A stretch of 64,000 bases of DNA from Ignavibacteria bacterium (GTDB lineage Bacteria > Bacteroidota > Ignavibacteria > Kapaibacteriales > Kapaibacteriaceae): assembly GCA_015709655.1 (NCBI GenBank), contig CP054181.1, positions 2,228,207 through 2,292,206 of the forward strand, read 5' to 3'. Positions within the stretch are counted from its first letter, which is position 1. The number at the start of each line of letters is the position of its first letter. The translations under genes were made by a program, and so were the position numbers. Shown here piece by piece: positions 38,380 through 42,906 of this stretch. The notes beneath the pieces were generated by a model that saw nothing but the letters and a program-made list of their open reading frames with translations, was not told where the DNA came from and ran no database searches.

Positions 38380-39248
38380 TACACGTGACGTTCTGCATGG
38401 TATGAGCTGCGGACGAGCGGCCCGCTTTCAACATAACCAAAGCCCATTTCCAACCCGATTTCCTTGTACTTACGGAACTCATCGGGGTGAACATACCGGT
38501 CAACCGATGTGTGGTTCTTGGTTGGCTGCAGGTACTGTCCCAGGGTTAAAACATCTACGCCAATTTGAACAATATCTTCCATCGTGCGGACAACCTCGTC
38601 GAAGGTTTCACCCAGACCAAGCATGATCCCGGTTTTCGTACGAAGGCCGGCTTTTTTACTTTCGGCCAGAACATTCAGTGACCAATCGTAGCGAGCCTGC
38701 GGACGCACGTACTTGTACAGGCGGGGAACGGTTTCGGTATTATGTCCCATGATATCGGGCATTGTCCGAAACACTCTGTGCATATTATCAAGATTGTTCT
38801 TAAAATCAGGAATCAGCAGCTCTATTGTGGTTTTCGGCGCCAGTGCCCTGATAGCACGAACCGTGTCGGCCCAGATTTCAGAACCGCCGTCCTTTAAATC
38901 GTCACGGTTCACGCTGGTAACCACGGCATGCTGAAGTTTCATTGCAACAACCGCCTCTGCAACGCGGCGTGGCTCGTCAAGGTCAACCGGCAAAGGCCGT
39001 CCGGTACGCACAGCACAGAACGAACACGATCGCGTGCAGGTATCGCCGTGAATCATGAACGTAGCAGTACCTGCATTCCAGCATTCGGTAATGTTTGGGC
39101 AGCGTGCTTCTTCACACACCGTATGCAGGGCTTTAGAGCGCATCATTCCCTTTACGCGGGCGTAGTCTTCGCCACCGGGGGCTTTTACTTTAAGCCATTC
39201 CGGACGTCGGGGAGCGGGGACAGTTGTTTCAGTTGTCTGGTTACTCAT
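38379..39248 (-). CDS. lipA: Lipoyl synthase
   Basis: Radical SAM enzyme that inserts two sulfurs into octanoyl groups on E2 or GcvH lipoyl domains. The 289 residues have both cluster motifs: Cys45, Cys50 and Cys56 (CEEARCPNITEC) for the auxiliary cluster, and Cys71, Cys75 and Cys78 (CTRSCSFC) for the radical SAM cluster. The C-terminus (VESGPLVRSSYHAERH) carries the conserved RSSYHA. It overlaps the gene before it by ATGA. Octanoyltransferase (lipB) is not in the window. The double-lipoyl E2 at 8204 would be a client. Confidence 0.96.
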   Translation of the reverse strand: MSNQTTETTVPAPRRPEWLKVKAPGGEDYARVKGMMRSKALHTVCEEARCPNITECWNAGTATFMIHGDTCTRSCSFCAVRTGRPLPVDLDEPRRVAEAVVAMKLQHAVVTSVNRDDLKDGGSEIWADTVRAIRALAPKTTIELLIPDFKNNLDNMHRVFRTMPDIMGHNTETVPRLYKYVRPQARYDWSLNVLAESKKAGLRTKTGIMLGLGETFDEVVRTMEDIVQIGVDVLTLGQYLQPTKNHTSVDRYVHPDEFRKYKEIGLEMGFGYVESGPLVRSSYHAERHV

Positions 39249-39751
39249 GGTAATGGTTTCAATAAGGCCGGATACAGTTTTTTAGCCATATCGGGCACGA
39301 CATCAAGGACAGTTTCCGGCGTTTTATAAAGATTTTTAGCTTGGTATTCAGGATCTGCCATCTTAAACTCAACATCGTACACGTATGCATTCATGAGTAC
39401 ACGTCCGCCACGACGGAAGAAATTACCCTGAACCACCTTGTCGGCCTTTAATTTTGCTACAGCGCGCCACACATCGCTTTCAAACTGGACATTGGTAGGG
39501 TCCAGGTTGAACTCGCTGGTTACCAGGTCAACAGAATCCTGCGGAATCATCACGAAGGCAGTTTGTGCGGGATCGGTATTGACCAGCATACGTCGGAGCG
39601 AATCGGCAAGATCGAACGACCATACATTCAGGCTCACTTCGCCGTCCATATTGCGGAAGGGGAGCACTACCACTCTGGTTTGAGCAACAGCGGGGAGCAG
39701 AAAACCTGCAGTGATACCAGCAAGGAGTGTCCACCAGATTGTTTTATTCAT
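39245..39751 (-). CDS. Secreted protein of unknown function preceding lipA
   Basis: A 168-residue protein with a signal peptide (LLAGITAGFLLPAVAQ). The mature part starts TRVVVLPFRNMDGEVSLN and includes KADKVVQGNFFRRGGRVLMN, the pattern seen in TolB N-terminal-like or CsgG/FlgO-type envelope proteins. AGGTGG lies about 6 bases upstream of the ATG. It overlaps lipA by four bases. The link to lipoylation is positional only. Confidence 0.65.
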   Translation of the reverse strand: MNKTIWWTLLAGITAGFLLPAVAQTRVVVLPFRNMDGEVSLNVWSFDLADSLRRMLVNTDPAQTAFVMIPQDSVDLVTSEFNLDPTNVQFESDVWRAVAKLKADKVVQGNFFRRGGRVLMNAYVYDVEFKMADPEYQAKNLYKTPETVLDVVPDMAKKLYPALLKPLP

Positions 39752-39781
39752 GATTCCACCTATTCATAATGCGATACTGAG

Positions 39782-40108
39782 TTACAAACGTTTTTGTAGT
39801 TCACCAAGCAGATCTTCAAGGTGCTTCAGCAGGACCTGAGCCCCTTCCCAGTCTCCGGATTTACAGCATTCAATAATATCTTTTCCGAGTGGGGCAAGAT
39901 GGGTAAAACCAAACTGTGCAAAAGAGCCTTTAATGGTGTGACCCAGGCGATACAACGCTTCCGGATCGGATTTGGTTACGAATAACGAGTGAGCATCGTG
40001 TAAATCCGACAGCCATTGCTGGGTAAACAGTGGCAACAGGTCAGCCAGTACCGGGTCAGTAGGCAGTGTATCGGGAAGGCGATATGGAACAGATGATGGG
40101 TTTGACAT
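39782..40108 (-). CDS. Stand-alone Hpt (histidine phosphotransfer) domain protein
   Basis: A 108-residue all-helical protein that relays phosphate in multistep His-Asp signalling. The phosphorylated histidine is His57 in RLGHTIKGSF, followed by the expected glycine-containing helix-turn (LAPLGKDIIECC). No kinase or response regulator gene is adjacent, so its partners are unknown. The ATG lies inside the P1 helix of the RNase P RNA gene and the AGGAG about 7 bases upstream overlaps that RNA's 3' part, so this gene is presumably read from the rnpB transcript. No later in-frame ATG gives a complete Hpt domain. Confidence 0.85.
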   Translation of the reverse strand: MSNPSSVPYRLPDTLPTDPVLADLLPLFTQQWLSDLHDAHSLFVTKSDPEALYRLGHTIKGSFAQFGFTHLAPLGKDIIECCKSGDWEGAQVLLKHLEDLLGELQKRL

Positions 40109-40506
40109 GGGAAGACTCCTGTAAGCCGAATTCTGTCTGCTTCACCGTAGTGAAGGAGGCAGCCATTTATCTGGGACTGCCGTTGCCGGCAGCCTCGAGC
40201 GATCTACCCGGAATGTTGCCGTGAGGCGGTGTTGGACGTCACCTGTGCCGAAGCACACACATGCCTGCTTGATCTTGCTCCGCACGGGGTTTGCCGAGCC
40301 GGATGGTCGCCCATCCGCTGGTGGGCTCTTACCCCACCATTTCACCCTTACCCGCCGGGGCGGGCGGTATCTTTCTGTTGCACTTTCCGTCGGCTTTGCT
40401 GTTCCCAGCATTACCGCCTTTCTGTTAGGAAGCGTGCTGTCCAACGGAGTTCGGACTTTCCTCATGGCGTGTTGCGCCACGCGGCTGCCCGTTGTCCCCC
40501 CGTGTC
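40104..40506 (-). ncRNA. rnpB: RNase P RNA (class A)
   Basis: Catalytic RNA that trims 5' ends of pre-tRNA. On the minus strand the universal GAGGAAAGTCCGAACTCC lies near the 5' side (about 40449-40466) and GAATTCGGCTTAC near the 3' side (about 40120-40132). The ends are set by P1: GACACGGGGGGAC (40494-40506) pairs with GTCTTCCCATGTC (40104-40116), with 12 of 13 positions paired (two G-U). The gene sits 7 bases after the COG1579 stop. Several open frames cross it (40142-40741) but are not genes. Confidence 0.92.
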
Positions 40507-40513
40507 AAACCAA

Positions 40514-41266
40514 TCATCCATTCTCTTCTTCAAATGCTGTTTCAACTTCGGTGATAACATCTTCGGTGACCAAAATACGACCGCAGTTCTCACAGGTGTA
40601 CATTTTGTCGTGATTATGTTTCATTTCCATTATGCGCTGGCTTGGTATTGCCGAGAAGCAGCCGCTGCACGAATCGCGTCGGATCGAAACAATTGCTTCG
40701 TGATGAAACGTCCGAATCCGCTCGTATTCGGCTTCGAGTGAGTCATCGATCGCAGCAATTGTCTGTAACCGCTGACTTATAAACTTCTTTAGTTCTTCGC
40801 CTGTATCGCCTTGCATTACTTCTAGCTCTTTCCGTTTATCGTCGAGCGCCTGTTGAGCTGTGTTGACCTCGGCCTGCTGAGCATCGCGTGTGGCGTGCAG
40901 ATTCTCGTCGGTAACACCAATCGTTCGCAGTTTTTCTTCAAGCTCAGCACGCTCGTTCTTGATGAACTCGATTTGCTTGGTAATAGCGTCGAACTCCTTG
41001 TTGTTGCGCACCTTGAACTGCTGACTTGAAAGTTTTGTTTCCTTATCGTTGAGCTCCAGGATGGTCACATGACCTGTTCCGTTAAGATGCTCAATCTCCT
41101 TAATCTTTTCAACTGTTTCAGACAAGGCGTTCAGTTTTTGTTCAAGAACGTCCTCCAACTGTTTTACTTGTACCGGAAGGTCGCCTAACTCTTCTCGTAA
41201 TTCGTCAAGGTGCTGGTCGATTAGCGAGAGGCGGAAAAGGAGTTTAATTTGGTCGTTCATAGACAT
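40514..41266 (-). CDS. COG1579-like coiled-coil zinc-ribbon protein
   Basis: A 250-residue protein: a long antiparallel coiled coil (about 15-180, rich in Glu, Lys and Leu heptads) followed by a C4 zinc ribbon with CSGCFS and CENCGR. The family is conserved in many bacteria and is suspected to bind nucleic acid, but has no confirmed function. There are two start options; the second ATG (41260) has the better AGGA spacing. It follows the Nif3-like gene by 28 bases, a pairing that recurs in this phylum. Confidence 0.85.
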   Translation of the reverse strand: MSMNDQIKLLFRLSLIDQHLDELREELGDLPVQVKQLEDVLEQKLNALSETVEKIKEIEHLNGTGHVTILELNDKETKLSSQQFKVRNNKEFDAITKQIEFIKNERAELEEKLRTIGVTDENLHATRDAQQAEVNTAQQALDDKRKELEVMQGDTGEELKKFISQRLQTIAAIDDSLEAEYERIRTFHHEAIVSIRRDSCSGCFSAIPSQRIMEMKHNHDKMYTCENCGRILVTEDVITEVETAFEEENG

Positions 41267-41294
41267 CCTGATTACTGTTGAAAAGCGTTTGTAG

Positions 41295-42071
41295 TTAAGG
41301 ACTGTAATACTGTACAGGGTTTGTGATAATCTGAGAAGTGTGAAATCTGATGTGGGGACATAGTGACTGAAGCTCAGAGGTCAGAGCATGAGGCACAAAT
41401 TGTTCCATTTCAAAATGCCCAGGGTCGATGATGGCTATTTGGTCTTTAGCAGCCATAAACGAATGATATTTAACATCTGCGGTGATGAATACGTCGGCAC
41501 CGGCAGCCACTGCGTCACCGTAATACGAGAAACCTGAGCCCCCTACCATTGCCACAGTATGGATATGGTCGCGGCTGCCGGCAGAAAACCGTACCGGATT
41601 GCCACAAACGGTAGCCACAGTATGCACGAAATCCATCAACGGTACCGGCTGGCGTGTCTGTGCAACGATACCCATATTCTCCTGTGGCGCAGCACGAAGA
41701 ACCCGCATCTGCAATAAGCCCAGCTTACTGCAGAGGAGGGCATTGGTTCCCTGCGGATACACGTCGAATGCAGTATGAACGCAGATCAGTGATAGATCTG
41801 CCCTAATCAGCTTTGATACCAGCCTGCCCGTTCTGTCGGATAACGCAATGCGGTGCAGTGGACTGTACACCAACGGATGGTAACTAACGATAGTATCAAC
41901 TCCCAGCGCCTCGGCTTCTTCTATCACCGCATCAGTTACATCGAGTGTAACCATGACCTCCAAAACGTTGTTTCGGGTATTCTCTACCTGGAGTCCCACC
42001 GGGTCGCCGCTAACGGCTACGTGTAATGGGAGTACTGACTCAATTGTGCTTAGGAATGAATGCACCTGCAT
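41295..42071 (-). CDS. Nif3-like dinuclear metal-centre protein (COG0327)
   Basis: A 258-residue member of the Nif3/YbgI family, which forms hexamers with two metals per subunit. The metal-binding residues lie in VSYHPLVYSPL and CVHTAFDVYPQGTN in the first half, and in TADVKYHSFM and DPGHFEMEQ in the second. The enzymatic role of the family is unproven, although some databases call it GTP cyclohydrolase 1 type 2. Its ATG has no Shine-Dalgarno, and a TAAATTTG -7 box sits seven bases before it. Confidence 0.88.
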   Translation of the reverse strand: MQVHSFLSTIESVLPLHVAVSGDPVGLQVENTRNNVLEVMVTLDVTDAVIEEAEALGVDTIVSYHPLVYSPLHRIALSDRTGRLVSKLIRADLSLICVHTAFDVYPQGTNALLCSKLGLLQMRVLRAAPQENMGIVAQTRQPVPLMDFVHTVATVCGNPVRFSAGSRDHIHTVAMVGGSGFSYYGDAVAAGADVFITADVKYHSFMAAKDQIAIIDPGHFEMEQFVPHALTSELQSLCPHIRFHTSQIITNPVQYYSP

Positions 42072-42078
42072 CGGACAG

Positions 42079-42086
42079 CAAATTTA
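42079..42086 (-). promoter_or_regulatory. TAAATTTG -7 box for the Nif3-like gene
   Basis: Exact TAnnTTTG match on the minus strand, seven bases before the ATG at 42071. It forms a divergent pair with the box at 42132-42139 in a 73-base intergenic gap. Confidence 0.4.
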
Positions 42087-42131
42087 CGGAACTGAATGGT
42101 GTTCATGCGCAATGCGTGGCTGAAACCAGCG

Positions 42132-42139
42132 TAATTTTG
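42132..42139 (+). promoter_or_regulatory. TAATTTTG -7 box for the metH upstream gene
   Basis: Exact TAnnTTTG match five bases before the ATG at 42145, which has no Shine-Dalgarno. A leaderless message is therefore likely for this gene and the metH behind it. Confidence 0.45.
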
Positions 42140-42144
42140 TTTCA

Positions 42145-42906
42145 ATGAAAATCATGAGTGCAGTTTTGCATTGGTCGGTATCACCACGGATGTGGGGGCT
42201 GCTGATGTGCATGGTGTTTGTTGTTTGCTGTCAGGTAACGCTGCAGGCACAGAAAACCGGTGAGCAGCCTCCACCTGATGACAGCGTTATCGTCTTCAGT
42301 CCTGCACTGCCTCTGCTCACTGACGAAGCGGCCGCAAAAGCAGCCATCGTTCATACGGGTGGTTTTAACCTTTTGTTTTCGCAGTCAGGATGGGGGGCAG
42401 GGGGCTTTTACTCATACAGGCTGGGCGACAACAGCTCGATTGTTGTGAGTGTGGATATCAGCGGACGCCGCAATACAGATGAGTTCGAGAATGCGTGGCT
42501 GGGTCCAATACCAGTTGTAGCCGAAAAAGTAAACCGGCTGTTTATGATACCGGCCACCATCGGCTTTCAGTATCGCCTGTTTGCCGACGACTTGCAGGAC
42601 TCGTTCCGTCCGTTTGTTATGGCCGGGTTTACACCCACGCTGATCCTGCAATCTCCATACATCAGGGACGGAATTTACTATGAGTTTTTTCAGTCGTTTG
42701 GGTATGCCAGGACGTATCTGCGCTGGGGCGGTGTATTTGGAGTTGGCTCGATGTTTGGGAATATAGCCGAAGGGTCTGTAGTGGGATTTACCGCCCGCTA
42801 CTACACCATACCCTTTGGAGGCGACGGATTGGAAAGTATGCGTGATTTCCCGATAACAAACTTTGGCGGTGTTTTTTTAACGCTTAGTGCCGGGTGGACA
42901 TGGTAA
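42145..42906 (+). CDS. Predicted outer-membrane beta-barrel protein
   Basis: A 253-residue secreted protein. After a signal peptide ([20 protein letters not shown] inside the N-terminal 40 residues) the sequence alternates polar and aromatic residues in short strands ([36 protein letters not shown]) and ends [11 protein letters not shown] with a terminal aromatic residue, the usual sign of an outer-membrane beta barrel. No specific family is recognised. Its 3' end overlaps the metH start region by a few bases, so it is in the metH transcript. Confidence 0.7.

Follow-up and report, generated by a model that had tools for sequence, protein, structure and literature searches.

The start codon and ribosome-binding site of an Hpt-domain phosphotransfer gene lie within the 3' strand of helix P1 of the RNase P RNA gene, rnpB, in the window (the whole stretch of 64,000 nucleotides that was analysed). 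Among the loci compared, a start inside P1 together with a ribosome-binding site occurred only in the window's family, referred to hereafter as f1. The explanation that we favor, with somewhat more confidence than doubt, is that rnpB is carried on an operon transcript and closed by a long P1 stem in which the Hpt start is locked; most likely, each copy of this transcript would become either ribozyme or Hpt message, not both. From the anatomy, conservation and covariation of the sequences we infer co-transcription, excision or processing, mutual exclusion of the two products, a low yield of Hpt and any regulation of it.

The rnpB and Hpt genes of the window

The features, all on the minus strand, are as follows.

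41295 to 42071, minus strand: NIF3/DUF34 protein (PF01784, E 4e-68)
40514 to 41266, minus strand: C4 zinc-ribbon / coiled-coil (CT398-like) protein (PF02591, E 3.2e-13), stop codon at 40516-40514
40494 to 40523, minus strand: 5' arm of the extended P1 (predicted fold and family covariation), which carries the 3' end of the zinc-ribbon gene (final codons and stop)
40106 to 40500, minus strand: rnpB, class A RNase P RNA (RF00010 ends; 255.2 bits against a gathering cut-off of 100, E 2.1e-83, model positions 1-367 of 367)
40116 to 40120, minus strand: Hpt ribosome-binding site AGGAG, on the inner 3' side of P1 (sequence)
40087 to 40116, minus strand: 3' arm of the extended P1 (predicted fold and family covariation), within which the Hpt start lies
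40106 to 40108, minus strand: Hpt start codon ATG, the last three RF00010 positions (sequence)
39782 to 40108, minus strand: Hpt-domain phosphotransfer protein, 108 aa (PF01627, E 4.8e-10, residues 24-105)
39245 to 39751, minus strand: next gene of the run, a 168-aa protein without a Pfam match

By its match to the whole covariance model, 40500 to 40106 is a class A RNase P RNA gene, and it is the single rnpB copy of the 2.84-Mb genome. Two ORFs of 130 and 170 aa run antisense to it (40221-40613 and 40229-40741, plus strand) and are probably chance products of constrained sequence. The Hpt protein exceeded the gathering score of PF01627 (40 bits against 24.6) and contains HTIKGSF. HxxKG is the phospho-acceptor histidine motif of the Hpt domain, and HTIKG or HTVKG was present in all 15 f1 Hpt sequences. 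Seven bases separate AGGAG from the ATG, the G of which is the final base of the RF00010 match. Homology to other class A RNAs puts the mature 3' end of rnpB near 40106, and a cut there during maturation would fall on the Hpt start codon.

The 3' strand of P1 (minus strand 40116-40104, GTCTTCCCATGTC) paired with 40506-40494 at 12 of 13 positions, two of them as G-U; the lone unpaired position sets C40502 against A40108, the A of the Hpt ATG. The first-pass annotation had counted the same 12 pairs and had placed the ATG (40108-40106) within this strand and AGGAG just before the ATG; both observations were confirmed, AGGAG being at 40120-40116. Its view that P1 is genuine is upheld by the full-length RF00010 match and by pairing of the arms beyond that of shuffled sequences. 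An rnpB 3' end before 40117 would remove the overlap, but the covariance model ran on to 40106 at its position 367. What the annotation had missed was the outward extension of the helix, the GTG of relatives that lies behind the mismatch and the zinc-ribbon stop within the other arm.

In the predicted fold of 40530 to 40080, the closing helix is 28 bp, not 13, and joins 40523-40494 to 40116-40087. Its 5' side consists of the segments 40523-40513, 40511-40503 and 40501-40494 and its 3' side of 40116-40109, 40107-40099 and 40097-40087, interrupted by two 1x1 mismatches (U40512.C40098 and C40502.A40108). The Hpt coding sequence occupies the 3' arm from the start codon through codon 7 and one base of codon 8. 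Pairing between the 35-nt arms beyond the Rfam P1 was predicted at -29.5 kcal/mol, compared to -15.6 kcal/mol (sd 3.2) in dinucleotide shuffles, 6 of 5000 of which were as low. Rfam boundaries of RNase P RNA can understate the real closing stem.

Conservation of the overlap and of the stem

We compared 196 oriented full-length rnpB loci, comprising 22 from f1, 95 from the rest of the order and 79 from the rest of the class. The order sample used 117 of the 120 genomes with an RF00010 match (G017, G170 and G205 had partial matches and were left out) and the remainder were the best-scoring 79 of 120 genomes with a match in the rest of the class. The rnpB matches of G145 and G205 began at model position 12 and stopped at 321-328, with P1 unrecognised; that of G205 lay at a contig end. 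One genome of the class (G151) had two strong RF00010 matches, C214:2897-3332 (234 bits) and C117:14151-14549 (206 bits), reflecting either a second rnpB or contamination.

An Hpt ORF followed rnpB in 79 of the 117 order loci. By family, it was present in 16/22 loci of f1, 7/14 of f2, 7/7 of f3, 42/50 of f4, 1/1 of f6 and 6/6 of f26, and in none of the 17 loci of f5, f27, f28 and f29. No Hpt followed rnpB in the other class loci (0/79, the best 79 of 120). The first-pass annotation had asked whether Hpt always follows rnpB; within the order it usually does.

The start codon occupied the last three model positions in all 15 f1 genomes with an intact Hpt and a full rnpB, as GTG in 14 and as ATG only in the window. 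AGGAG was present in the P1 3' strand of 13 of these 15, the others having AGGAA (G001) and AGGTG (G022). At the six f1 loci that lack Hpt, neither a start codon nor AGGAG was found at the P1 spot (0/6 for each), and AGGAG was absent from the P1 strand in the rest of the order (0/95) and in the other class loci (0/79, the best 79 of 120). The sixteenth f1 Hpt (G020) is broken, and AGGAG and GTG are still in its P1 as a fresh relic of the overlap. In many relatives the GTG pairs with CAC of the 5' arm; the C.A mismatch of the window arises because ATG replaces this GTG. Hpt has disappeared or been disrupted repeatedly within f1, two changes being the minimum forced on an rnpB-core tree that is poorly resolved, with outgroups mixed in, and from which only a lower bound was taken.

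The likely Hpt starts of other families lay about 10-190 nt beyond the model end, with one exception in 63 (G163, f26), where an in-frame TTG stands at the f1 start spot without a ribosome-binding site. In f2, f3, f4, f6 and f26, Hpt is a conserved neighbor of rnpB without overlap. Aligned with eight orthologues chosen from the 63 other-family Hpts, the f1 proteins had 10-12 extra N-terminal residues, which we read as a start that moved upstream into P1. A test of frame spacing was discarded because the profile frames included rnpB sequence and a constant value was therefore built in.

Outward pairing beyond P1 reached a median of 14.5 pairs in f1 (range 6-27), compared to 7.0 when outer arms were exchanged between genomes. 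The extension was 12 pairs or more in 19/22 loci and 9-27 bp in 21/22, with 6 in G002. Medians were 7 in f4 and 8 in the other class loci (the best 79 of 120), and 2 when arms were exchanged, so a modest extension appears to be widespread and a long one typical of f1. In a phylum control outside the class (15 loci from 88 genomes with a match, 2 of the 15 failing a positional motif check), the extension was 0-12 bp.

On comparative evidence, the inner pairs of the extension (k1-6) covary strongly. Over 16 distinct rows, 87 of 96 cells were paired, after manual adjustment of a 3' bulge offset in five genomes, compared to 53% after arms were swapped between genomes; none of 20000 permutations was as high. 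Three of seven nearest-relative comparisons contained 5, 4 and 5 double-compensated pairs and the other four had too few changes to be informative. For G008/G009, G016/G018 and G002/G021, own arms formed 11, 10 and 11 of 12 pairs, respectively, and swapped arms only 2, 3 and 1. Taken singly, the stem of G009 was weak (56/500 shuffles as low) and that of G002 was no better than shuffles (326/500 as low). The six Hpt-less f1 loci did not pass the swap test on their own (388/5000, n=6); four of them form one clade on the rnpB-core tree.

In these Hpt-less relatives the P1 region varies, with compensation, where the start signals sit in others. Because they keep the stem without the signals, the stem appears to belong to rnpB, and Hpt to have moved into it. 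We rejected a stem built for Hpt control, since relatives without Hpt still have the long stem. The first-pass annotation's view that the two uses of the strand conflict is supported; that this conflict regulates either product is a conjecture.

Transcript fate and alternative explanations

The zinc-ribbon ORF ended 12-42 nt ahead of rnpB in 22/22 f1 loci, and a homologue was upstream of rnpB in 154/196 loci overall. The NIF3/DUF34 gene is probably in the same operon, given the shared strand and short gap. A T-rich run followed rnpB in only 2/22 f1 loci compared to 41/50 in f4, 12/14 in f2 and 6/7 in f3. A scan of 39600-42200 detected no minus-strand terminator and no sigma-70-like promoter, a class of scan that Bacteroidota-type promoters may escape. 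TAnnTTTG, which we take to be the Bacteroidota -7 promoter box, was found within 80 nt upstream of rnpB in none of the 22 f1 loci. It was found there in 14/50 f4 loci, suggesting a possible dedicated promoter for rnpB in f4. Genes for RNase III and RNase E/G are present. Together, the zinc-ribbon spacing, the T-runs, the promoter and terminator scans and the RNase genes make co-transcription and excision of rnpB likely. Outside f1, the length of the extension was not associated with a missing T-run (p 0.28), so this comparison lends no support to a role of the stem in excision.

In folded precursors, the predicted probability that the Hpt start codon is unpaired had a median of 0.00 in the 15 f1 loci, compared to 0.50 in other families (n=49 of 63 starts, those whose ATG lies no more than 100 nt from the model end). 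The window start was about one-third open (0.34) because of the C.A mismatch. The gap was smaller for the ribosome-binding region (medians of 0.33 in f1 and 0.42 in other families), scored over five bases set one position downstream of AGGAG. When a ribosome on the upstream stop was modelled by blocking the 5' arm, mean start openness rose from 0.07 to 0.25, and that of the ribosome-binding site was unchanged (0.24 and 0.24). Removal of the 5' arm of P1 raised mean start openness from 0.07 to 0.31.

In the model that we propose, rnpB is one member of a co-directional run of NIF3, zinc ribbon, rnpB and Hpt. The outward extension of P1 pairs the end of the upstream gene with the start of the downstream one, and the long stem would probably serve rnpB as the site of its excision from operon RNA. 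In f1, the Hpt frame has been lengthened upstream, bringing its ribosome-binding site and start into the P1 3' strand. In a transcript folded and trimmed as RNase P RNA, the Hpt start would be locked or removed, and only copies whose P1 has not formed, has been opened by a ribosome or lacks its 5' arm would yield Hpt. The likely outcome would be a low yield of Hpt linked to operon transcription. Since the same strand must pair for P1 and be free for Hpt, one RNA is unlikely to be both ribozyme and message; since the start signals are kept wherever Hpt is intact, Hpt is presumably still made from the start in P1.

Harmless genome compaction, by which the overlap would be a frozen accident affecting neither product, is unlikely but has a real chance of being correct. 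The repeated loss or breakage within f1 marks Hpt as dispensable, and the GTG starts and hidden site suggest a low need for it; yet AGGAG in 13/15 and the start in 15/15 intact cases were retained at positions where P1 varies once Hpt is gone. Rather less can be said for an Hpt translated from its own RNA, beginning inside rnpB at an internal promoter or left as a trimmed 3' fragment, which we judge doubtful. With the 5' arm of P1 missing from such an RNA, the start would be free and competition would not arise. The predicted opening upon removal of that arm fits, as do RnpB molecules without the 5' side of P1 reported in S. aureus (PMC3937233), whereas the region has no sigma-70-like promoter in a scan that does not extend to Bacteroidota promoters. 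Conservation cannot reveal a separate promoter inside rnpB as the core is too constrained.

An Hpt start that is truly internal, the overlap being an annotation artefact, is hardly credible. Methionine in the other-family orthologues aligned to column 1 across a gap but, ungapped, to about residue 13 of the window Hpt, and in G015 an ATG without a ribosome-binding site adjoins that place. No f1 sequence, however, has methionine at aligned position 13, and the next in-frame ATG, GTG or TTG in the window is a TTG 72 nt downstream, also without a ribosome-binding site. We therefore ruled out an internal start near residue 13, and the overlap described in the first-pass annotation is retained. Coupling is a more substantial alternative, though an improbable one: ribosomes finishing the zinc-ribbon gene would occupy the 5' arm, keep the outer stem unpaired and free the Hpt start, and upstream translation would decide between ribozyme and message. 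The upstream stop lies within the 5' arm, 12-16 nt before rnpB, in 12/15 f1 members with intact Hpt, and the modelled ribosome opened the start somewhat. On the other hand, it left the ribosome-binding site as before, blocking had no effect in G001 and G004 (gaps of 42 and 26 nt) and the long stem is retained without Hpt.

The reading that we prefer, an operon-borne rnpB with the Hpt start locked inside its long P1, could be taken further to a switch of RNA fate, to which we give little weight. One operon transcript would become either ribozyme or message, with ribosomes coming off the upstream gene, or a cutting enzyme, deciding between the two fates at the P1 stem. If true, this would tie a phosphorelay protein to the capacity of the cell for tRNA maturation. 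Across a bacterial family, one base-paired strand has been retained both as part of an essential ribozyme and as part of a protein gene. Members of f1 with and without Hpt offer a natural comparison of how a cell splits one RNA between catalysis and translation.

Comparison with known systems

In bacterial rRNA precursors, leader and trailer pair to form a long stem that closes a structural RNA and is processed by RNase III; such stems measure roughly 20 bp or longer. The predicted stem of the window is of this length, with 28 bp and two mismatches, and likewise closes a structural RNA; here any cleavage is hypothetical, and the arms differ in encoding the end of one protein and the start of another. 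Operons also contain start codons masked by hairpins and translational coupling, in which a paired site and start may need the passage of a ribosome. The start and ribosome-binding site of Hpt are likewise paired, but the helix that hides them belongs to a catalytic RNA of 395 nt.

The RNase P RNA of S. aureus, a Firmicute, is of type B. The gpsB-rnpB locus of that organism is the nearest precedent: according to the accessible part of the report, rnpB is read through from gpsB (SA1279) and matured from a longer RNA, P1 protects the RNA ends, and the ORF SA1278, which may be untranslated, has its ribosome-binding site and start in RNase P RNA (PMC3937233). SA1278 is wholly within rnpB, whereas the window Hpt only overlaps P1, and that part of the account describes neither a conserved protein gene sharing P1 nor a long covarying stem (PMC3937233). 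A conserved protein start inside P1 was not found in the open PMC literature, to which the search was confined. The arrangement is of a known kind, the overlap of a noncoding RNA and an ORF.
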